A DNA stretch of 21,377 bases from the IMG/VR virus record IMGVR_UViG_3300032265_000121, positions 1 to 21,377 of that record, one strand, 5' to 3'. Positions 5,668 to 20,661 of the stretch are shown here, piece after piece. Source of the DNA: a virus. Made by a program: the position numbers and the translations under genes. The notes under the pieces are model-generated. The model did no database searches. It was not told the origin of the DNA and saw only the letters and a list, made by a program, of their open reading frames with translations. How positions within the stretch are numbered: the stretch's first letter is position 1; each line of letters starts with the position of its first letter.

Positions 5668-5809
5668 AGAGTATATGAAAGAAATGATTGTTCGTGGAAA
5701 CGTGAACAATGTAGAAGAAGCAAAAGGTAGATGTAATGCAATCCTTCACTTGTTAGATTTAACATATGAAGACTTAGTTCAAGGAGCAAGGGATGACAAT
5801 AAATACTAG
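5585..5809 (+). CDS. Conserved small acidic protein overlapping the portal gene
   Basis: 74 residues from ATG 5585, with AGGAGA about 9 bases upstream inside the portal gene. The sequence is helical and charged: LTPEEFQEWKDN at the start, then TLFKALNQDREYMKEMI, NVEEAKGRCNAILHLLDLTYEDL. I remember proteins of this pattern just after portal genes in aquatic phages, with no known function. The 83-base overlap is dual coding: the portal tail in one frame and this N-terminus in the other. Its stop overlaps the next start by 17 bases. It may be a portal or assembly partner, inferred from position only. Confidence 0.8.
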   Translation: MVLTPEEFQEWKDNLVTKTLFKALNQDREYMKEMIVRGNVNNVEEAKGRCNAILHLLDLTYEDLVQGARDDNKY

Positions 5810-6125
5810 TGGGATTAACCCAGTAGGACATAGATTGTTAGTATTACCAGAGGCAGTAGAAGAAGTAACCGAAGGTGGTATTATCATTCATGTAGGTAAT
5901 CAAAAGGATAGGGAGCAGCTAGCCCAGATCCGAGGTACAGTGGTAGCGATGGGTTCAACTGCCTATGCTGATCAGAAAGATGCTTGGTGTCAGGTTGGAG
6001 ACTTCATTACCTTTGGTAAGTACTCTGGACTTATTTATAGAGAGAATGAAACTAAAGATAAAAAAGAGTATAGAGTTATTAACGATTTAGACGTTGTGGC
6101 AACACACGAGAGGGAATCAAAATGA
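5793..6125 (+). CDS. GroES-like co-chaperonin (Cpn10)
   Basis: 110 residues against about 97 for bacterial GroES; T4 gp31 is of similar length. Family features in order: P10-V-G-H-R-L-L-V-L-P at the first strand, a mobile-loop-like segment ending in TEGGIII (26-32), RGTVVAMG (47-54), VGDFITFGKYSG (68-79), and the closing YRVINDLDVVA. The GGIII element is where co-chaperonins bind GroEL. No GroEL is encoded here, so it presumably works with the host chaperonin, as T4 gp31 does to fold the T4 capsid protein. Lying between portal and scaffold fits that job. The ribosome site AAGGAG precedes ATG 5793; the end overlaps the scaffold gene by ATGA. Confidence 0.85.
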   Translation: MTINTSGINPVGHRLLVLPEAVEEVTEGGIIIHVGNQKDREQLAQIRGTVVAMGSTAYADQKDAWCQVGDFITFGKYSGLIYRENETKDKKEYRVINDLDVVATHERESK

Positions 6126-7487: not shown

Positions 7488-8111
7488 ATGGCGAACATCA
7501 ATCGTCCTAAGGGCCTAAACCCAGTACAAAACACTGACGGTTCACCATGGTCAGCAGGTGCTACATTATTCGCGGTTGCGAGTGATGCTTCAAACACTTA
7601 TGCTATCGGTGATATCGTTATGGCAGCAACAGGTGGTGACGCTTTAGGCACACCATACGTAACAAAATGGTCAGGTACAGTAGCAGCTAACAGTTTACCA
7701 GTAGGTGTAATCGTTGGTATTCGTGTTGCTGATCCTGGTACTTCATTAGTTGGTAACTCACTCTCATTAGAGAAAACTTACCTTCCATTAAACGCAGGTG
7801 CACATTATCTATATGTTGTTACAGATCCAATGGCTTATTTCACTGTACAAGGTGATTCAACTGTTTGGGCTGCATCTAACTTAAACAATAACGTAAACGT
7901 ATCTATCACAGCTAACCAAACTACTTTAGGAAATGGTTCTCCATATTCTAACACAGTAGCTACTGGTCCAGCAACAACAAACAGCTTACCATTACAAATC
8001 GTGGGTATTAATGCACGTCCTGATAATGCGTTAGGTGCTTATTGTGAACTCGTAGTTCGTTGGAACGTTCATGCTTACATCGGTCAAGCAACTGGCCGTA
8101 CTGGCGTTTAA
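7488..8111 (+). CDS. Putative capsid decoration/head protein
   Basis: 207 residues with a strong SD (AAAGGAG). It starts MANINRPKGLNPVQ, then is almost all beta: Ala, Thr, Val and Asn-rich, with PVGVIVGIRV, YLYVVTDPMAYFTVQG, LQIVGINARP and CELVVRWNVH segments. No catalytic motif is visible. Codons are enriched in those used by the neighbouring capsid gene, as for abundant proteins. Short beta-rich proteins starting NRPxGL.PV directly before a major capsid gene are, in my memory, annotated as head or decoration proteins. It probably coats or cements the shell. Confidence 0.6.
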   Translation: MANINRPKGLNPVQNTDGSPWSAGATLFAVASDASNTYAIGDIVMAATGGDALGTPYVTKWSGTVAANSLPVGVIVGIRVADPGTSLVGNSLSLEKTYLPLNAGAHYLYVVTDPMAYFTVQGDSTVWAASNLNNNVNVSITANQTTLGNGSPYSNTVATGPATTNSLPLQIVGINARPDNALGAYCELVVRWNVHAYIGQATGRTGV

Positions 8112-8130
8112 TAATTAAAGGAGATCTAAA

Positions 8131-9051
8131 ATGGCGGGTTTAATTACCACAGCATCACATCCTAAGGCTTTATGGCCAGGGATCAAACAATGGTGGGGTC
8201 AAGTTTACGATGAGCATGCAGTAGAATATACTGATCTTTTCGATTCAGAAACTTCATCACAAAACTATGAAGAAGATGTACAATTAACTGGTTTTGGTTT
8301 AGCTCCAGTTAAATCTGAAGGTGCTGGCGTTCAGTACGATTCAGAAGTACAAGGCTTCACAACACGTTACACACACATTGCATACGCTCTTGGTTACATC
8401 GTAACTAAAGAAGAGTTAGATGATAACTTATATGAGCAAGTGTCACGTAAACGTGCAGCAGCTTTAGCAATGTCTTTCCGTCAAACGAAAGAAAACGTTG
8501 CAGCTAACGTATACAACAGAGCATTCAGCAATACATACGCTGGCGGCGATGCAGTATCATTAGCTAATACAGCACACCCAAATACATCAGGTGGTACATG
8601 GGCTAACCGTCCAACAGTTGATGTTGACCTCTCTGAAGCAGCTTTAGAAGATGCTATCATTGCGATCATGGGTCTACAAAACGATCGTGGTTTATTAATC
8701 AATATTATGCCTAAGACATTGATTATTCCACGTCAACAAGTGTTTAATGCTCAACGCATTTTACATTCATCATACCAAACTGGTAATGCTAATAATGATA
8801 TTAACGTGATTAAATCTGGCAATTATATGCCAGGTGGTTTCAAAGTTAACCATTACTTAACAGCACCAAATGCTTGGTTTATCCGTAACACAATTCCTGG
8901 CAAAACAGGTATGAAGTACTACGAACGTGTTGGTATGCAATTTGACCAAGACAATGACTTCGATACTATGAATGCTAAGGCAAAAGGTTACGAACGTTAC
9001 AGCTTCGGCTGGTCAGATCCTAGAGCAATCTGGGGTGTTAACGGTCCTTAA
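8131..9051 (+). CDS. Major capsid protein (HK97 fold expected)
   Basis: 306 residues preceded by AAAGGAG. The pattern fits the short HK97-fold capsid group without a large cleaved prodomain: a helical N-terminus with HPKALWPGIKQWWGQVYDE, a domain with VQLTGFGLAPV and an E-loop-like stretch near GAGVQYDSE, a long spine-type helix at about 90-130 (KEELDDNLYEQVSRKRAAAL, MSFRQTKENVA), then LLINIMPKTLIIP and a C-terminal FGWSDPRAIWG. It follows scaffold and head genes, and a terminator-like hairpin comes directly after it, as expected for the most abundant virion protein. Confidence 0.9.
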   Translation: MAGLITTASHPKALWPGIKQWWGQVYDEHAVEYTDLFDSETSSQNYEEDVQLTGFGLAPVKSEGAGVQYDSEVQGFTTRYTHIAYALGYIVTKEELDDNLYEQVSRKRAAALAMSFRQTKENVAANVYNRAFSNTYAGGDAVSLANTAHPNTSGGTWANRPTVDVDLSEAALEDAIIAIMGLQNDRGLLINIMPKTLIIPRQQVFNAQRILHSSYQTGNANNDINVIKSGNYMPGGFKVNHYLTAPNAWFIRNTIPGKTGMKYYERVGMQFDQDNDFDTMNAKAKGYERYSFGWSDPRAIWGVNGP

Positions 9052-9982: not shown

Positions 9983-10423
9983 ATGGCTAACTCAACGAGT
10001 ATACAAATACTGGAAGATGGCGCTGCCAGAACAGTTCTTAAAGTGGAAGGTGTGTTAGATACATCTGATATATCTTCTACTCTTTTAGTTGATCCTGCCG
10101 CACAAGCTTCAGTTGATCCTACTGGATCTAATTACCTTAAAGCATCTTCATATCGTATTGGTAAAATAATACATAACGTTGAAGATGGTTTATCATTCAA
10201 TCTCTTTTGGGATGCAACCACACCAGTTCGTATTGAAGAACTCACTGGTCGAGGTAAAGCAGACTATAGAGACTTTGGTGGTTTACAACTTAAAGGTTCT
10301 ACTGGTACTGCTAACACAGCTCCAGCAGGAGCTACAGGTAAGATTTACTATTCAACACAAGGATGGTCAACTGGTGCTATTTTATCTTTCTCAGTTATTA
10401 TTTACTTAACTAAACAATACTAA
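9983..10423 (+). CDS. Conserved virion protein (146 aa)
   Basis: 146 residues, AGGGGA ahead of the ATG. It reads as a compact beta protein: ILEDGAARTVLKVEGVLDTS, then IGKIIHNVEDGLSFNLFWDA, PVRIEELTGRG and GWSTGAILSFSVIIYLTKQY. I recall this pattern immediately after capsid genes in uncultured aquatic phages. No catalytic motif is visible. The stop overlaps the next start as TAATG. Likely a small head or fibre-base protein; the function is not proven. Confidence 0.68.
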   Translation: MANSTSIQILEDGAARTVLKVEGVLDTSDISSTLLVDPAAQASVDPTGSNYLKASSYRIGKIIHNVEDGLSFNLFWDATTPVRIEELTGRGKADYRDFGGLQLKGSTGTANTAPAGATGKIYYSTQGWSTGAILSFSVIIYLTKQY

Positions 10424-10581
10424 TGAATAGTTTAATAAATAATCAAGCTAAGTCTATAGAAGTAACAGCAGTTATAACCAGAGCTGATGGTACCGTAGAA
10501 CAACTCGGTACTATCGACTATTGGCACAAGAATCCTATTAAACGTATTATATGGAGAATTAAAAAATGGCTACACTCTTAG
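10423..10581 (+). CDS. Small protein with aromatic/basic C-terminal helix (52 aa)
   Basis: 52-codon ORF joined to the previous stop by TAATG and overlapping the next gene by 16 bases. The first half is beta-like (SIEVTAVITRADGTVEQLGTI); the second is YWHKNPIKRIIWRIKKWLHS, an amphipathic, Trp- and Lys/Arg-rich helix. The overlap architecture at both ends and the matching pattern I recall from similar phages support a real gene. The C-terminal helix could lie on a membrane or bind another virion protein. Function unknown. Confidence 0.65.
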   Translation: MNSLINNQAKSIEVTAVITRADGTVEQLGTIDYWHKNPIKRIIWRIKKWLHS

Positions 10582-10947: not shown

Positions 10948-12426
10948 ATGGCTCTTAATCAAGCAGCAGTCAATGTCGAGGTTGTCAATGGTCAAGCAAA
11001 TCAGTCTTTAGTAAAGGCTCTTACTGCTACCGCTATAACTTCTACTGCTTCTTTTTTAAGGGGCTTACAAGCAATTAAAAGTGTTACTAGCACTTCAACA
11101 ACTAGTTTAATAAGACGTATTGGGAAGGTGCTATCAATAGCATCTTCTAATACTGTAAGTTTAATTAAAGCTTTATCAAAGTTTTTATCTATATCAGTTA
11201 CAAGTACTGTAACAATAGTGAAAGCTTGGTTAAGAACTTTAACAGCAACAACAACCAATTCAGTAACTGTATCTAAGATAATAGGAGCTATTAAATCTGC
11301 TTCTACTACAAGTACAGTAACTATAGTAAAAGCATTAAGTAAGTTTATAACCTTAGTTGAAACTGAAGTTATAACATTACTCATAAGAACAAGTAGGTTT
11401 ATAACCTTAACAGCTACAGCAGTAACTAATACTGCTTCAATATTAAAACAAGCAAGTAAGACTCTTACATCTAGTTTAGCTAACACTGTAACAGTTAAGA
11501 AAGCTATTAATCTTATTAAAAGTATTAGTAGTAATGCTACTATAACATTAAATAGGTCTTTAAAGAAGTTCTTAACTATAGTAGAGTCAGAAGTTGTTTC
11601 TATATTAATTGTTGCTAATCGTTTTATAACTCTTAGTTATAATTCAATAGTTAGTACGAGTTTAATTAAAAAGTCTTATAAGACACTTAGTGTAATTACA
11701 AATAGTACTATTTTTGTAATAAAAACAATATTAAAGAACTTACAGGTTATACTGTATAGCTTTAGTTTATCAGGACCACTAAATAGTGACTTAATTAATA
11801 ACTCTATTTTAAATAGTGGTAATACTATTAATATTAATGTTTCCCTAGCAATAGCGCAAATTTTTAATAAATTACTAGTAAGTACAGTAGCTCAGTTTGC
11901 GTCTTTAAGTACTGCTGTGGTAAAACTTAAAACATTAACGGTAACTGCTATAACAACAACAAGTACTTTATTTAAACAAATACAAAGAACATTGTCTACT
12001 AGTATAAGTAGTATAATTAGCCTCATAAAGGCTATTAGGAAGCTCTTAAACGCATCTTTAAGCAATACTGCTACCTTAGTAGTTGCTCAGTTCTATTATA
12101 AGCTTTTAAGTGTAGTATCTAACACTACAACTATATTAACTAAAACAGCTATAAAAGTATTGACAATAGGAGTAAATTCTGTTATAATATTAGTTAAAGG
12201 TATTAATAAATACTTAAATATTATATTAAATGCAAGTATTAGTTTAATTACTAATGTTGTATCTTTTGTCAATTATGCAGCTAATAAGGTTATATACGCT
12301 GTACCTAAGTTACGAAGTCTAGCAGCAACTCGATTTATTACTATGGTAGGTACCCTTAAAAAGGTTAGATCTGCCACTACAGTTAAGTTTAGAACCCTAT
12401 TTATTGACAAGGATTTAAATATATGA
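10948..12426 (+). CDS. Degenerate 18-residue tandem-repeat protein (492 aa)
   Basis: 492 residues starting MALNQAAVNVEV. From about residue 25 to 430 it consists of roughly twenty repeats, mostly 18 residues long (range 16-21), with consensus close to L-[ST]-h-x-x-x-[ST]-x-[ST]-h-x-h-[LV]-h-K-A-h-x-K, such as LSIASSNTVSLIKALSKF and LTVTAITTTSTLFKQIQRT. The repeats are interrupted once at about 265-310 by an Asn/Ser/Gly-rich stretch, and the last 60 residues are basic. It is extremely rich in Ser, Thr, Ile, Val, Leu and Lys, almost free of Gly, Pro, Cys and Trp, and strongly basic. Similar repeats occur, as I recall, in other aquatic phages. A fixed short period with beta-branched residues suggests a beta-solenoid or stacked fibre shaft. 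It is not a recognised enzyme. The ribosome site is poor; coupling to the stop 8 bases upstream is likely. Confidence 0.8.
   Translation: MALNQAAVNVEVVNGQANQSLVKALTATAITSTASFLRGLQAIKSVTSTSTTSLIRRIGKVLSIASSNTVSLIKALSKFLSISVTSTVTIVKAWLRTLTATTTNSVTVSKIIGAIKSASTTSTVTIVKALSKFITLVETEVITLLIRTSRFITLTATAVTNTASILKQASKTLTSSLANTVTVKKAINLIKSISSNATITLNRSLKKFLTIVESEVVSILIVANRFITLSYNSIVSTSLIKKSYKTLSVITNSTIFVIKTILKNLQVILYSFSLSGPLNSDLINNSILNSGNTININVSLAIAQIFNKLLVSTVAQFASLSTAVVKLKTLTVTAITTTSTLFKQIQRTLSTSISSIISLIKAIRKLLNASLSNTATLVVAQFYYKLLSVVSNTTTILTKTAIKVLTIGVNSVIILVKGINKYLNIILNASISLITNVVSFVNYAANKVIYAVPKLRSLAATRFITMVGTLKKVRSATTVKFRTLFIDKDLNI
11263..11709 (+). repeat. 75-residue higher-order duplication inside the repeat protein
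   Basis: Residues 106-180 and 181-254 of the repeat protein align over their length. Matching landmarks are VTVSK/VTVKK, AIKSAS/LIKSIS, ALSKFITLVETEV against SLKKFLTIVESEV, SRFITL/NRFITL and ASKTL/SYKTL. The Phe codons at 11344 and 11569 are exactly 225 bases apart. The second copy lost one residue in its third unit. This block contains four 18-ish units each, so it is a duplication of four units on top of the basic period. Confidence 0.75.
12160..12188 (+). promoter_or_regulatory. Consensus sigma-70 promoter inside the repeat gene
   Basis: TTGACA at 12160-12165 and TATAAT at 12183-12188 are spaced by exactly 17 bases, with TG at 12180-12181 for an extended -10. The block TGTTATAATATTA (12180-12192) is identical to that of the promoter at the start of the window, while the spacer differs. 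Expected start is near 12195, about 230 bases before the next gene (12423). It would supply fibre, lysis and tail genes independently of the capsid transcript. I saw no other full match in the window. Confidence 0.72.
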
Positions 12427-13105: not shown

Positions 13106-14362
13106 ATGGCACTTAATCAGTTTACCAATAATGCAGGAACCACACTAGCTAGTGGTATAAATGCTTCTGTCACATCACTCACTGTTTCTACAGGTAGTGG
13201 TGCTTTATTCCCAACCCTTTCAGGTTCGTCATACTTCTATTGTACTTTACAACAAGTATCAGGCGGTGGTATAGAAATTGTTAAAGTAACAGCTAGATCT
13301 ACAGATACATTTACTATTGTAAGAGCACAAGATGGTACAACAGGTCTATCATTTGTTACTGGTGATTTTGTTCAATTAAGACTTACAGCAGCAGACTTAA
13401 ATAACTTTTCTCAATTAGACTCTACTAATACATTTGCAGCAGCTCAGACATTTACAGCCGCTCCTATTTTAACAGCATTAACTGGTGTTGTATATGGTAA
13501 TGGGGCTAGTGCCTCTACTGTAGCCACTGGTGCTCAATTAGCAACAGCTATAGGTAGTACTACAATTACTAATGCAACTAATGCTACAAACGTAACAGGT
13601 ACGGTTGGTGTAGCTAATGGTGGTACTGGTGTTGCAACTTTAACAACAGCCTATGGTGTATTAGCAGCAGGTACAACTGCTACTGGTGCAGTACAAAATA
13701 TTGGTACAGGTACGAGCGGTCAGATTCTAAAATCAAACGGTCCTGGTGTTTTACCCTCATTCCAAGCAGCAGCTGCGGGCGGCTTTTCTAATATTACTGT
13801 AGCTACTACTCCAGGTTCATTTACTACGCCCGCTACAACAACTAAAATTAAAGTTACTGTGGTTGGTAGTGGTGGTGGTGGTGGTGCAGGATATTCAGGA
13901 ACACCTGGTCCTATAGGAACACCAACATCTCCTGGATCAGGTGGTGGTGGTGGTGGTGCTTCAATAAAAGTATTTACTGTTTCCGCATCTACACCTTATC
14001 CTTATACAGTAGGAGCAGCTGCCCCTGCAAGTGGTAATACTTCTTCTTTTGGTCCTGTAAGTGGAACAACAATATCTGCAACAGGAGGAGTAGTTGGTTC
14101 TACTTTTCCTTTCACTTCTTATGCTTCAGGTGGCGGAGGAAGTAATGGTGATTTAAATATAGACGGTGGTGGTGGTGGTTCTACTACTCAAGGAGCTTCT
14201 AGCATGTTAGGTGGTGGCGGTAAAGCTGTTATTGCAAACCCTAGTACTACAGGTTCCATCGCAGGGATTAATGGAGGAAATTATGGTGGCGGAGGTGGTG
14301 GAGCGCAGGGACCATCCGCAGGGGGTAATGGTGCAGCTGGTGTAGTAATTATTGAATATTAG
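13106..14362 (+). CDS. Tail fibre/spike with glycine-rich receptor-binding domain
   Basis: 418 residues. The first 100 residues (MALNQFTNN, then SVTSLTVSTGSG, RAQDGTTGLSFVTGDFVQLR, LTAADLNNF) form an N-terminal attachment module I have seen in phage fibres. Residues about 105-235 are a Thr/Ala/Gly-rich shaft (GVANGGTGVATLTTAYGVLA, LKSNGPGVLPSFQ). From about 255 to the end there are five or more poly-Gly runs separated by short hydrophobic loops, ending AAGVVIIEY. This resembles glycine-rich adhesin domains such as those of T2/S16 gp38 (polyglycine II sandwich); the closing AGVVIIEY is common to such phage domains. The loops between Gly runs are the likely receptor-contact surface. Confidence 0.82.
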   Translation: MALNQFTNNAGTTLASGINASVTSLTVSTGSGALFPTLSGSSYFYCTLQQVSGGGIEIVKVTARSTDTFTIVRAQDGTTGLSFVTGDFVQLRLTAADLNNFSQLDSTNTFAAAQTFTAAPILTALTGVVYGNGASASTVATGAQLATAIGSTTITNATNATNVTGTVGVANGGTGVATLTTAYGVLAAGTTATGAVQNIGTGTSGQILKSNGPGVLPSFQAAAAGGFSNITVATTPGSFTTPATTTKIKVTVVGSGGGGGAGYSGTPGPIGTPTSPGSGGGGGGASIKVFTVSASTPYPYTVGAAAPASGNTSSFGPVSGTTISATGGVVGSTFPFTSYASGGGGSNGDLNIDGGGGGSTTQGASSMLGGGGKAVIANPSTTGSIAGINGGNYGGGGGGAQGPSAGGNGAAGVVIIEY

Positions 14363-14370
14363 GAGAATAT

Positions 14371-14637
14371 ATGAAAGAAGCATTAATTAGTCCCAATGAA
14401 ATTATAACTTGGGAAGGAAATAATATAGGAGTTAGAGTTGCTCAAGTGGTTCTTGAAGGTCAAACTTTTCCTGTAGGTGATCCTTTATATTGGATGGTTT
14501 GTGATGATAATGTTATAGCTGATATTTATTATCTTGCTAATGATGGCACAATAGAATTAAACCCTAATTATATACCACCTCCTACACCTGATGTCAATCC
14601 AGAAGTATCAAATGTAATTCCATCTATTAGTATGTAA
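14371..14637 (+). CDS. Small conserved protein downstream of the fibre gene (88 aa)
   Basis: 88 residues with AGGAGAATAT before the ATG. The core VRVAQVVLEGQTFPVGDPLYWMVCDDNVIADIYY, shown in parts as GVRVAQVVLEGQTFPVGD and PLYWMVCDDNVIADIYY, is a motif I recall behind phage fibre genes. The C-terminal 20 residues are Pro/Ser-rich. It could be a fibre assembly factor, comparable in placement to short chaperone genes that follow fibre genes, but I see no direct evidence. The stop overlaps the next start as TAATG. Confidence 0.65.
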   Translation: MKEALISPNEIITWEGNNIGVRVAQVVLEGQTFPVGDPLYWMVCDDNVIADIYYLANDGTIELNPNYIPPPTPDVNPEVSNVIPSISM

Positions 14638-15209
14638 TGAATGAATATAAGTTTTTAGATGATTGGGTAACACATAGAACAAACATTTGGAAACAAGTTT
14701 TATTAAAGTTAGAAAATAAGAATCAATTTTTAGAAATAGGTTCACATGAAGGTAGATCAGCAATTTGGTTTATTGAAAATGGACTTGATAATAACGGCAA
14801 AATAACCTGTATTGATTCTTGGATATGGGGTAGTAAACATGAAAAGACTTTTGATTTAAATATTGATTTATGTTTAAAAACTAATTCAACTAAAAAAGTA
14901 ATCAAGCTTAAAGGTTCTTCTTATTTTCATTTAGCATCTTTAATAGCACAAAAAAAAGAGTTTGATTTAATTTATATTGATGGTTCTCATAAAGCAAGAG
15001 ATGTAATTATTGATGCTTGTTTATCTTGGAACTTATTAAAATTAAATGGTATTTTAATCTTTGATGATTACTTGTTACAAACTAAAGATGTTTATGCTAA
15101 ACCTGCTATAGATTTGTTTGTAGATATGTTTAGAGAAAATATTAAGTATCTTTATATAGGTGATCAATTAATAATAAAAAAAACAAGTAGTTTAACTAAG
15201 GAGTACTAA
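14637..15209 (+). CDS. SAM-dependent methyltransferase (class I, Methyltransf_24-like)
   Basis: 190 residues. Motif I is FLEIGSHEGRSA (31-42), the acidic ribose contact is the D60 in TCIDSW, and the following strands are FDLIYIDGSH (109-118) and LNGILIFDDYL (136-146) with D143/D144. This order and spacing is typical of the small Methyltransf_24 group, which often acts on sugars or small molecules. Substrate unknown. Its codons are more AT-rich (AAA, TTA, ATT, AAT throughout) than those of the capsid and fibre genes, suggesting it arrived separately. It lies between a fibre accessory gene and the lysis cassette, where phages often carry cargo genes. It could modify a host surface glycan or a fibre-linked molecule. 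Confidence 0.85.
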   Translation: MNEYKFLDDWVTHRTNIWKQVLLKLENKNQFLEIGSHEGRSAIWFIENGLDNNGKITCIDSWIWGSKHEKTFDLNIDLCLKTNSTKKVIKLKGSSYFHLASLIAQKKEFDLIYIDGSHKARDVIIDACLSWNLLKLNGILIFDDYLLQTKDVYAKPAIDLFVDMFRENIKYLYIGDQLIIKKTSSLTKEY

Positions 15210-16233: not shown

Positions 16234-16575
16234 ATGAGTATCCTAGTCAAAGAGGAATATATCAAAGCAATGTACACATTGTTTTGTAAACTCCCACCCT
16301 TTGACAAGTATGAGTTACCCCCAGCTAGTAAGATAGAATGGACTATAGTAGATGACAGAGAATTATGTGGTTCTTATTCACCAGAACCTCATTGCATTAC
16401 ATTTTCTGTAGCCCGTCATAGTCATTTCACGTCTATATGTAAAACACTCCTTCACGAGATGATACACATGCTAATGTACCTTCAAGGTAAGAAGTATGAG
16501 TTACATAATAAGACTTTTTATAAACATGTAGATAAGATTTGTTCTATCTACGGCTTTGACCCGAAAGAACTTTAA
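16234..16575 (+). CDS. SprT-like zinc metallopeptidase
   Basis: 113 residues. The sequence LLHEMIHMLMYLQGK contains HExxH (H74, E75, H78), and H91 in YELHNKTFYKH fits the third ligand of the SprT-like group, where H-G/N-x-x-F follows. The N-terminal 60 residues include WTIVDDRELCGSYSPEP and CITFSVARHS, matching the beta-like region before the metal site. There is no signal peptide. SprT-like proteins are often linked to protein cleavage at DNA (SPRTN) or are of unknown function in phage. It lies between two holin candidates, so a lysis or virion-processing role is possible but unproven. Confidence 0.78.
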   Translation: MSILVKEEYIKAMYTLFCKLPPFDKYELPPASKIEWTIVDDRELCGSYSPEPHCITFSVARHSHFTSICKTLLHEMIHMLMYLQGKKYELHNKTFYKHVDKICSIYGFDPKEL

Positions 16576-17529: not shown

Positions 17530-19613
17530 TGCCTAAGGCAAATCTACCGTTAAATACAGAACTTGGTTTTAGAACTAACAGTACAGATAAAGACTCTAAA
17601 ATGGTTAACTGTTATAAAGAAACAGTTGGTAAGAAAGTATATACAGTTAAAAGACCTGGTAAAGCTACTTATACAGTAACACCAGCCCTTTCTTCCCCTG
17701 GTCAAGGTTTATGGAGTTATAATGGTAGTTTATATGCTGTAGCAGGAGGTAATTTATATAGTATAACAAGTAATGTTTCTACTAGTTTATTAACAGGTTT
17801 AAACAGTACAAAGAATGTAAGCTTTGTTAATACTCTAGCTACTACAAGTCCTCATCCTTACATGGTATTCCATGATCAAACTAATGGATACTATTTAGAT
17901 GCTACAGGAGCTATTTATACTATAGCTAAACAAGTTAATTTAGTTGTATTAACTAATGGTGGGTCAGGTTATGCTTCAACTACAGGTACCTTTACTGTAG
18001 TAGGATCTATTAGTGGTAGTGGAGCTGTTGGAACTTATACCACTTATGGTGGTTCTATTACTAATGTTACACTAACTAATCCTGGTTCTAATTATGCAGG
18101 TACTTTGACTGTTTCATTTAGTAACAGTAGTGCTTCTGTTACAGGGTCAATTGCTACAACTACACTAACAGTTACAGCGGTATCAGCAGGGACTTTAAAT
18201 ACAGGTATGACAATATCAGGCACTGGTGTTACATCAGGTACTACTGTTGTTAATCAACTTACTGCAACAGGAACTGCTGTAGCAACTACTACTTATGTAA
18301 GTGGTGGTGCAGGATCTGCTTCTACAATTGTTCTTTCATCTGTGACTGGTATAGTAGTTAATCAACTTGTATCTGGTACTGGTGTGCCTGCAGCTACAAC
18401 AGTAACTGCTATTAATACAACTACTAATACTATAACATTAAGTAACTCTTTAACAGTACAAGCAGCTGGTACTTATAATTTTTATACTCAAGGGGATATA
18501 GGTACTTATACAGTTAGTACTTCACAAACAGTAGCTAGTACTACTATCACAGGTGCTGTAACAACAACTGCAGTAGCCTCAGCTAGTTTAAATACTTTCC
18601 CCTCTAATCCAGTCCCTGGTATAGTTTACCTAGATGGTTATATATTTGTTATGGATCAACAAGGTACTATATGGCAATCAGATAATGAATCACCTAACTT
18701 ATGGGGTGCTTTAAATTATACTTCAGCTAAATCAGAAGCTGATAAAGGTAAAGCAATTGCTAGACACCTTAATTACATTGTAGCATTTAAAGAATGGACT
18801 ACTGACTTTTTCTATGATGCTGGTAATGCTACAGGCTCTGTACTATCTATTAATCAATCTGCCCATATGGAAGTGGGTTGTGCAACAGGTGACTCTGTTC
18901 AAAACGTAGAACAATCTTTAATATGGATGTCTAATGTAACAGAAGGTGCTAGATCTATTATGATGCTTAATGGATTAAATCCTTATAAAGTATCAACTAA
19001 AGCTGTTGAGACTTTCTTAAATGCAAGTTCATTAGTAGGTGTAAACTCTTGGGTTTATAAAATAGCTGGACATACCTTTTATGGTTTAGTACTAACAGAT
19101 CAAAATGTAACTCTTGTTTATGATGTTGATGAAAAAGAATGGCACATTTGGACTACAAGTAAAGACTACATTGGTGGTGGTGAAAACTACTTTGAATGTT
19201 CTTTTGTACAACAACACCCTTTTAACAGTGGTCCATACTATGTATTAGATGCTGTTAATGGTTTAATCTTTACACTAGACCCTACTAACTACCATGACCC
19301 TTTTGGTCCTGTTAGAATGCGTATTGTAACTAATAGACAAGACTTTGGAACTTATGATAATAAAACAGGTGGTTGTTTAACTTTGTTTGGTGAAAACATT
19401 AATGATGTTATGCAAGTAAGACATACAGAGAATGACTATGATACATGGTCTGCTTATAGGAATATTGATTTAAGCTTATCTAAACCTTGTCTATATAATC
19501 TTGGTAGATTTAGACGTAGAGCGTATGAATATTTATATACAGGAAATAATCCTTTAAGACTTGAACGAGTAGAGTTTGATCTTAGTGGTATAGATATAGG
19601 ACCACAACAGTAG
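17529..19613 (+). CDS. Tail hub / packaged-DNA stabilisation protein, P22 gp10-like, with inserted domain
   Basis: 694 residues, longer than the P22 gp10 (about 472). The N-terminus (NLPLNTELGFRTNSTDKDSK, KMVNCYKE) and blocks such as VAGGNLYSIT, YLDGYIFVMDQQGTIWQSDN, GALNYTSAKSEADKGKAIAR, EWTTDFFYDAGNATG and WMSNVTEGARSIMMLNG are the gp10-type beta-propeller. Residues about 138-352 are a foreign-looking Thr/Ser/Gly/Val insertion with two similar ISGTG or VSGTG motifs (near 229 and 282), like repeat domains of tail fibres. It joins the gp4-like ring to the tail needle. The insertion may project from the tail and contact the host. The start overlaps the gp4-like gene (TAATG) and the stop overlaps the next (TAGTG). 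Confidence 0.78.
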   Translation: MPKANLPLNTELGFRTNSTDKDSKMVNCYKETVGKKVYTVKRPGKATYTVTPALSSPGQGLWSYNGSLYAVAGGNLYSITSNVSTSLLTGLNSTKNVSFVNTLATTSPHPYMVFHDQTNGYYLDATGAIYTIAKQVNLVVLTNGGSGYASTTGTFTVVGSISGSGAVGTYTTYGGSITNVTLTNPGSNYAGTLTVSFSNSSASVTGSIATTTLTVTAVSAGTLNTGMTISGTGVTSGTTVVNQLTATGTAVATTTYVSGGAGSASTIVLSSVTGIVVNQLVSGTGVPAATTVTAINTTTNTITLSNSLTVQAAGTYNFYTQGDIGTYTVSTSQTVASTTITGAVTTTAVASASLNTFPSNPVPGIVYLDGYIFVMDQQGTIWQSDNESPNLWGALNYTSAKSEADKGKAIARHLNYIVAFKEWTTDFFYDAGNATGSVLSINQSAHMEVGCATGDSVQNVEQSLIWMSNVTEGARSIMMLNGLNPYKVSTKAVETFLNASSLVGVNSWVYKIAGHTFYGLVLTDQNVTLVYDVDEKEWHIWTTSKDYIGGGENYFECSFVQQHPFNSGPYYVLDAVNGLIFTLDPTNYHDPFGPVRMRIVTNRQDFGTYDNKTGGCLTLFGENINDVMQVRHTENDYDTWSAYRNIDLSLSKPCLYNLGRFRRRAYEYLYTGNNPLRLERVEFDLSGIDIGPQQ

Positions 19614-20029
19614 TGATTGTAACATTAGTTCCTAAAGAACTTTATTTAGATTTATTTCCTAAAATTGAATCTTATTTAAATAAAGCAGCAAAGTATACTT
19701 ATGGTAGGTATAGTGCAGAGGACATTAAAAACACTTTATTAAAAGATAGACAACAACTTTGGGTTGCTTTTGAAGGTGAAACAATATATGGTTTTGTAGT
19801 TACAGAAGTAATTACCTATCCACAAATGAAAGCCTTAGTGATGCACTTTACAGCAGGTAAAGAATTGACTAAATGGAAAGATGTAATGCTAAGCGAGATA
19901 CAAGAGTTTGCTAAAGAAACTGGCTGTAAAGTAATTGAATCCTATGGACGTAAAGGATGGGCTAAGGTCTTTAAGAATGATGGTTACAATATTAAATTTA
20001 TATTTTACGAATTACCTGTGGAGAATTAA
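19613..20029 (+). CDS. GNAT-like acyltransferase-related protein (138 aa)
   Basis: 138 residues. It starts at GTG 19613, overlapping the previous stop as TAGTG; no ATG fits. Segments LWVAFEGETIYGFVVTEV, then ALVMHFTAGKEL, then EIQEFAKETGCKVIESYGRK and VFKNDGYNIKFIFYEL follow the strand-helix order of the GNAT fold. The usual acetyl-CoA loop (Q/RxxGxG/A) is not clearly present, so activity is doubtful. I recall proteins of this type in the tail module of podovirus-like aquatic phages. It could modify a virion protein or have only a structural role. Confidence 0.65.
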   Translation: MIVTLVPKELYLDLFPKIESYLNKAAKYTYGRYSAEDIKNTLLKDRQQLWVAFEGETIYGFVVTEVITYPQMKALVMHFTAGKELTKWKDVMLSEIQEFAKETGCKVIESYGRKGWAKVFKNDGYNIKFIFYELPVEN

Positions 20030-20031
20030 CA

Positions 20032-20661
20032 ATGTATAAAATGTTTAACTTATTTAATTGGGTTACTACTCTAGTAGAATCTTTTACCTTCTATGGTGGT
20101 GGTAAAGGAGGTGGAGGTGGTTCTCAGCCTACAGCTACTGACTTCTTTGGTGCAGGTCAACGTGCACCTTATGCTGATTTATTATCAAAGCTTCTCTTAG
20201 GTGGTGGTACTATTGGAGGAACAGCTGCATCTGATTACATTAAATCAACTCCAGGTTATAAGTTTGGTATGGATCAAGGTACACAAGCTATTGATAGAAC
20301 TTCTGCTTCTTCAGGTGCAGGACCTTCAGGAGCTGAAAACTTAGCACTACAAAGCTATGGTAACCAATATGCTCAAACACAATATCAACAACTTATTCAA
20401 AACCTTATGGCACCTTCTGGTGCAGGTCAAGGTGGTATTGTAACTCCTCCTCAACAACAATCTAGCTTTGGTGCACAAGCTCTTGGTGCTTATGCTGGTG
20501 CTGGGTTCCCTGGTGTCTCTAGTATATTTGGTAGTGGTGCAATGTCTGCATCACCTGCTGTAGGTTCAACTGCATACTGGTTAGGTTCTGGTGGTGCAGC
20601 TGCAGGAGGTTATGATGCTTTAGGAGCAGCAGCAACTATGTTTTCTCCATTTGGATTTTAA
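20032..20661 (+). CDS. Putative internal virion/ejection protein (209 aa)
   Basis: 209 residues with GGAG before the ATG. A hydrophobic N-terminus (MFNLFNWVTTLVESF) is followed by a GGGKGGGGGS linker, then PYADLLSKLLLGGG, SDYIKSTPGYKFGMDQGTQ, SYGNQYAQTQYQQLIQNL and an Ala/Gly/Ser-rich tail. The TPGYKFGMDQGTQAIDR block is one I recall from phage proteins in tail or ejection modules. High Gly/Ala content and the aromatic amphipathic start are consistent with an ejection protein that enters the host envelope, comparable to P22 gp7, but this is not shown. Confidence 0.6.
   Translation: MYKMFNLFNWVTTLVESFTFYGGGKGGGGGSQPTATDFFGAGQRAPYADLLSKLLLGGGTIGGTAASDYIKSTPGYKFGMDQGTQAIDRTSASSGAGPSGAENLALQSYGNQYAQTQYQQLIQNLMAPSGAGQGGIVTPPQQQSSFGAQALGAYAGAGFPGVSSIFGSGAMSASPAVGSTAYWLGSGGAAAGGYDALGAAATMFSPFGF

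Follow-up and report, generated by a model that had tools for sequence, protein, structure and literature searches.

A virus-only 18-residue repeat protein encoded between gp80-like and gp77-like genes as the probable rope of a GP4-type neck fibre

The repeat protein encoded between the gp80-like and gp77-like genes of a 21,377-base virus contig (the window, i.e. the whole stretch of DNA analysed) is probably the elongated backbone, or 'rope', of a bead-chain neck fibre of the GP4 fibre I type, with gp80-like beads and a position near the gp77-like protein. We assign this reading a probability of about 60%. The slot of the rope and its partner genes are well supported (Table 1). The gene order, the variable number of repeats and the constant partners together make this protein the best rope candidate in the phage group of the window. 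The contig encodes a large terminase, an SU10-like portal and adaptor, a GroES-like protein, a Mu gpT-like capsid protein and an Hc3-like head-closure protein, and, judged by this gene content, the virus is a short-tailed phage. We also observed the following among the virion genes: the GroES-like gene (5793-6125; assigned by similarity to annotated co-chaperonins of related phages), a methyltransferase gene (14637-15209), an SprT-like metalloprotease gene (16234-16575) and an acetyltransferase-like gene (19613-20029).

Table 1. Positions of the repeat gene, its parts and its neighbours in the window
Feature	Coordinates	Strand	Basis or remark
Repeat protein ORF	10948..12426	+	ATG 10948 to stop 12426, open, 492 aa
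~19 recognisable 18-residue units in the rope-like repeat protein	10948..12426	+	Self-similarity, unit profile
N-terminal LN pentads 'MALNQAAVNVEVVNG'	10948..10992	+	Family-conserved; [LIV]N-x3-[LIV]N also in syntenic Burkholderia, Pseudomonas and Sinorhizobium phage proteins
First array, 18-residue units (residues ~24-262)	11017..11733	+	Unit profile, spacing
Non-repeat insert (residues ~263-328, 66 residues)	11734..11931	+	LN motif copy at residues 278-289 (11779-11814)
Second array, 18/20-residue units (residues ~329-438)	11932..12261	+	Unit profile
Conserved, less regular C-terminus (residues ~439-492, ~54 residues) ending VKFRTLFIDKDLNI	12262..12423	+	
gp80-like protein (GP4 fibre I bead), 124 aa	10566..10940	+	7 nt upstream of repeat gene; PF23140, E 9.9e-5
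gp77-like protein (GP4 fibre-tail adaptor), 103 aa	12423..12734	+	Overlaps repeat gene by 4 nt (ATGA); PF23148, 45.2 bits, cut-off 27
Tail fibre protein, downstream, same gene block	13106..14362	+	PHROG tail fibre families, best named 2.4e-22
Ejection-type gene	20032-20661		phrog_598; away from fibre block

The units of the repeat protein follow the 18-residue consensus K-[TLI]-[LI]-[ST]-[VAI]-x-S-T-S-T-[VA]-[TS]-[IL]-[VIL]-K-[AS]-[IVL]-[GSN]. Self-similarity by lag (BLOSUM62 versus shuffles) gave z = 12.0 at lag 18, 6.0 at lag 36 and 3.0 at lag 54, and a unit profile trained on relatives counted 18-19 units with a total score of 254 (shuffled mean 3.1, maximum 19.1). These values agree with the earlier note on this DNA, which had described a 492-residue protein with about twenty 18-residue repeats. 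Its description of them as basic and poor in Gly, Pro and acidic residues also holds, with 53 K+R against 8 D+E, only 1.8% G, 1.0% E, 0.6% D and 0.4% P, and a composition of T 14.4, S 13.2, L 12.4, I 12.0, V 10.2 and K 7.9%. The constant period that it had claimed stands in part: most units are spaced by 18 residues, but spacings of 20, 21 and 38 also occur, one gap between unit starts is 84 residues long and a non-repeat insert separates the two arrays. Tandem Repeats Finder detected no DNA-level array at 10948-12426, the repeat being present only in the protein; the repeats are therefore old and have been maintained as protein. Nothing was found in support of an antisense ORF (11001-11486, 161 aa). 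The insert holds 'LNSDLINNSILN', resembling the N-terminal 'LNQAAVNVEVVN' of the same protein. This N-terminal LN motif reappears inside several ropes, at residues ~203 and ~421 in that of contig L035 and within the insert of the window protein, as if entire rope modules had been fused.

We found no match of the repeat protein above the cut-off in Pfam and none in PHROGs, NCBIfam or the PDB, which bears out the claim that the repeats are unlike known fibre repeats. Weak matches to NAGLU_N and T4 gp15 look like chance. A search of the PDB by sequence found neither a GP4 rope chain nor any relation of the repeat protein to a PDB chain. No relatives were recovered by the patterns used from a collection of bacterial and archaeal genomes with one genome per species. 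A tblastn search with two family members against INPHARED phages and plasmids also gave nothing and missed the homologue in MW202796, likely because of low-complexity filtering, since that homologue was recovered by synteny.

The assignment of the two flanking genes comes from Pfam. The gp77-like protein of the window matches PF23148 ('fiber-tail adaptor gp77') above the cut-off with an E-value of 1.4e-11, and the profile of its family matches PDB 8jou_D (E 0.0028). The gp80-like protein scores 23.1 bits against PF23140 ('Podophage GP4 fiber I protein gp80'), where the curated cut-off is 27 bits; the same model matches 15 of the 16 members of the gp80-like family, with a best E-value of 5e-7. 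Its AlphaFold2 model is of low confidence (pLDDT 53), and its Foldseek matches, all with E-values of 0.15 or higher, were uninformative. A 52-residue ORF at 10423-10581 (+), MNSLINNQAKSIEVTAVITRADGTVEQLGTIDYWHKNPIKRIIWRIKKWLHS as read by hand, overlaps the start of the gp80-like gene, and a homologous small ORF occupies the same place in relatives.

The order of the three genes was examined from both ends. With the gp80-like protein as bait, 327 relatives were found, of which 80 were fetched and 42 complete distinct repeat proteins read. Considering the immediately adjacent gene only, a gp77-like gene comes next in 40 of these 42 and after none of 25 other genes downstream of gp80-like (Fisher P 2e-16, a value that is overstated as the sequences are related); gp77 was not detected beside the other two repeat proteins. 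With the gp77-like protein as bait, 238 relatives were found and 80 fetched, and 65 upstream proteins were examined. At least six units were present in 64 of them, and the remaining one, a fragment, has the C-terminus of the family, so that the repeat gene lies directly before gp77-like at all 65 loci, usually with gp80-like directly ahead. The repeat protein is thus encoded between gp80 and gp77 homologues, as is expected of a GP4-type fibre I rope. In some contigs gp80-like and the rope are 2-3 kb apart with other genes between them. In a second group of contigs (L076, L079, L100, L104 and others) the gene directly after gp80-like encodes another fibre-like protein, 'MA[FL]V[LV]xDR[VI]...', and in several of these contigs the rope is found further downstream, in at least one contig together with gp77. 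Contig L035 encodes a second gp80-like protein (7931-8362; 30% identical) that has an N-terminal extension and lies downstream of gp77-like. The earlier note had placed the repeat gene beside a fibre adaptor, which the adjoining gp77-like gene confirms, and the reading as a fibre-related, probably virion-borne repetitive protein is supported.

The relatives form a virus-only family. The 45 non-redundant members pooled are 214-772 residues long with 8-37 units, a range that excludes fragments and two longer proteins (708 and 965 aa) with other N-terminal domains. In the latter two, from contigs L151 and L163, additional unrelated sequence stands ahead of the repeats. Pattern-guided searches yielded homologues in 13 and later in 30 viral contigs; the gp80-like gene lies 7-21 nt before the repeat gene in every one of them in which the flank is present, and in most the gp77-like gene shares 4 nt with the repeat gene. 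The identity of gp80-like proteins stays at about 70-86% while the rope varies over its whole range of lengths and unit numbers. A variable rope beside a constant gp80-like protein is expected of a variable-length backbone, and argues for that role. One homologue has been deposited, as a 'hypothetical protein' (UOF82047.1; Caudoviricetes sp. ct2os315, MW202796.1), with 37% identity over 151 residues (E 1e-8). It shares the lag-18 signal (z 8.6) and the gene order with the window protein, but is 429 residues long and differs at the C-terminus.

Cultured podophages have a protein in the same slot. A protein of 170-291 residues follows the gp80 homologue in Burkholderia phages JC1, BcepMigl, BcepIL02 and DC1, Pseudomonas Itty13, Ochrobactrum POI1126, Sinorhizobium PBC5 and phiM5, Roseobacter CRP-4, Methylophilales MEP401 and others. 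The gene after this middle protein is Gp77 by Pfam in JC1, and was assigned by size, position and annotation in the other phages; in BcepMigl a pectin-lyase-like gene lies between the middle protein and the gp77 position. The middle proteins of BcepIL02, BcepMigl, JC1, MEP401, C72C1, MW202879, PBC5 and phiM5 are repetitive (lag-20 z 3.4-10.6), and JC1_54 and BcepMigl gp57 match phrog_19041 ('virion structural protein'). The N-terminal motif [LIV]N-x3-[LIV]N is common to the window protein and five of the cultured-phage middle proteins in the tested set, and a survey of 515 ORFs from these loci found it outside the rope class only in GroES homologues; LN pentads were also seen by eye at the start of POI1126 gp16. 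The repeat proteins in this slot and the motif that some of them share with the window protein speak for the rope reading. In Lessievirus and related phages, the middle proteins (BcepIL02 gp56, JC1_54, BcepMigl gp57, Itty13, PBC5 orf12 and POI1126 gp16) resemble the window protein in slot, in being repetitive with a period that is ~20 in most, and in N-terminal LN pentads, but their units are rich in Gly, Ala and Arg, and in Lessievirus the hydropathy is strand-like. The unit profile of the window family gave nothing above shuffles on these ~20-residue ropes, and hhalign matched the two groups only at the N-terminus (P 0.025), so common descent with the cultured-phage ropes is not demonstrated. 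A likeness by eye of the 18-residue units to those of POI1126 or PBC5 was unsupported when tested with the unit profile.

Each fibre I of GP4 is reportedly built of gp80 dimers that an elongated rope protein holds together, and stands on a 15-fold adaptor, and we take gp77 of GP4 to be a 15-fold ring adaptor. In PDB 8JOU (GP4), 10 chains carry the gp80 sequence and 3 carry that of gp77, as would be expected if several beads formed a chain on an adaptor, and this favours the rope reading. The window locus resembles GP4 fibre I in having gp80-like before and gp77-like after the rope position; its rope unit is 18 residues long and Thr/Ser/Lys-rich, with up to 37 units in relatives. An elongated repetitive protein with this many units could hold several beads. 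In the mechanism that we infer, the protein would be present in the virion at a presumed copy number, many gp80-like copies would bind and string along it via the 18-residue units, and the bead chain would be anchored by one end near the gp77-like adaptor. Gain or loss of whole units would change the number of bound beads and hence the length of the fibre. The Lessievirus rope has ~11 'AxMxL' units (our own reading of the sequence, not a program count) beside the 10 gp80 chains of the GP4 model, which by analogy suggests roughly one unit per bead; on this rule we hypothesize about 20 beads per fibre in the window phage. More tentatively, and with somewhat less than even chances, the rope may act as a protein ruler that works outside the tail tube: the number of units would set the number of gp80-like beads and so the length of the neck fibre, and phages would tune this length through the gain and loss of single units, the partners otherwise remaining constant. 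The Anabaena myophage A-1(L) offers a functional analogy only: it has five bead-chain fibres anchored on a 15-fold neck ring, but each bead is a trimer of gp81 that connects head to tail with the next, and there is no rope (PMC10966104). It is plausible that the window rope is a new type of repeat in a known kind of structure.

The earlier note had proposed a continuous beta-solenoid or helical shaft. An unlikely variant of this idea is a self-standing fibre shaft, in which the units fold by themselves into a beta-solenoid or a trimeric beta/coiled-coil rod and gp80-like is a mere neighbour or the tip. The regular 18-residue period and the beta-branched composition speak for it, as does the pooled unit spacing in the family, where 20 (123 cases) is commoner than 19 (35) or 21 (17) beside 401 cases of 18. 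This spacing parity was dropped as a proof of beta structure, because many of the 20-residue spacings sit at recurrent homologous linkers. Even lags exceed odd lags in the window protein (z 3.7), not in all relatives. Against the shaft, AlphaFold2 gave no solenoid (pLDDT 34), strand-like two-residue alternation was not found, and the hydropathy of the family is helix-like: in the unit profile a period of 3.6 accounts for 49% of the variance (permutation P 0.005, uncorrected for the nine harmonics), with windowed z of 4-12 across the family. The strict linkage with gp77 and gp80 is also better accounted for by a shared complex. With a beta-branched composition and a helix-like hydropathy, the periodicity does not decide between helix and strand; folding only upon binding would fit these mixed signals, and poor prediction would do so equally. 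The shaft as first proposed was therefore not borne out, and the genomic context points instead to a backbone that would bind many copies of the gp80-like protein.

The helix-like period, together with the basic and hydrophobic composition, is what a membrane-active or ejected protein would show, whose amphipathic helices (18 residues being five turns) insert into the host envelope. We consider this slightly less probable than the shaft. The gene is part of the fibre block, at a distance from the ejection-type gene, and is linked with the fibre adaptor gp77; Ser and Thr are very frequent, and, as every unit has two conserved Lys, the regular units contain no stretch of 19 residues free of charge. 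The earlier suggestion of a membrane-interacting element, behind which stood the composition and the amphipathic period only, was not upheld. Least probable of all, in our estimate, is a scaffold or chaperone for fibre assembly that is missing from mature virions. In JC1, mass spectrometry of virions found the gp80 and gp77 homologues (gp53 and gp55) and did not report the middle protein gp54 (PMC9144972), and in phiM5 the gp80 homologue has the note 'detected in phage particle proteome', which is absent on the syntenic middle protein. The presence of both neighbours in JC1 virions favours the rope reading, and the missing gp54 counts against it; a low copy number could account for that absence, but this is not support for the rope. 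BcepIL02 gp56 and BcepMigl gp57, on the other hand, are annotated as virion-associated, and the hypervariable length in repeat units suits a structural backbone more than a chaperone.

Hundreds of uncultivated phage contigs carry gp80-like and gp77-like genes (the 327 and 238 relatives above), and the gene between the two belongs to no family and is called 'hypothetical' where deposited. A label of probable fibre backbone would explain a block of unannotated virion genes, and a repeat protein directly before gp77 provides a simple genomic signature for GP4-type neck fibres. The natural series of ropes, from 8 to 37 units, makes the idea of a length ruler directly testable.
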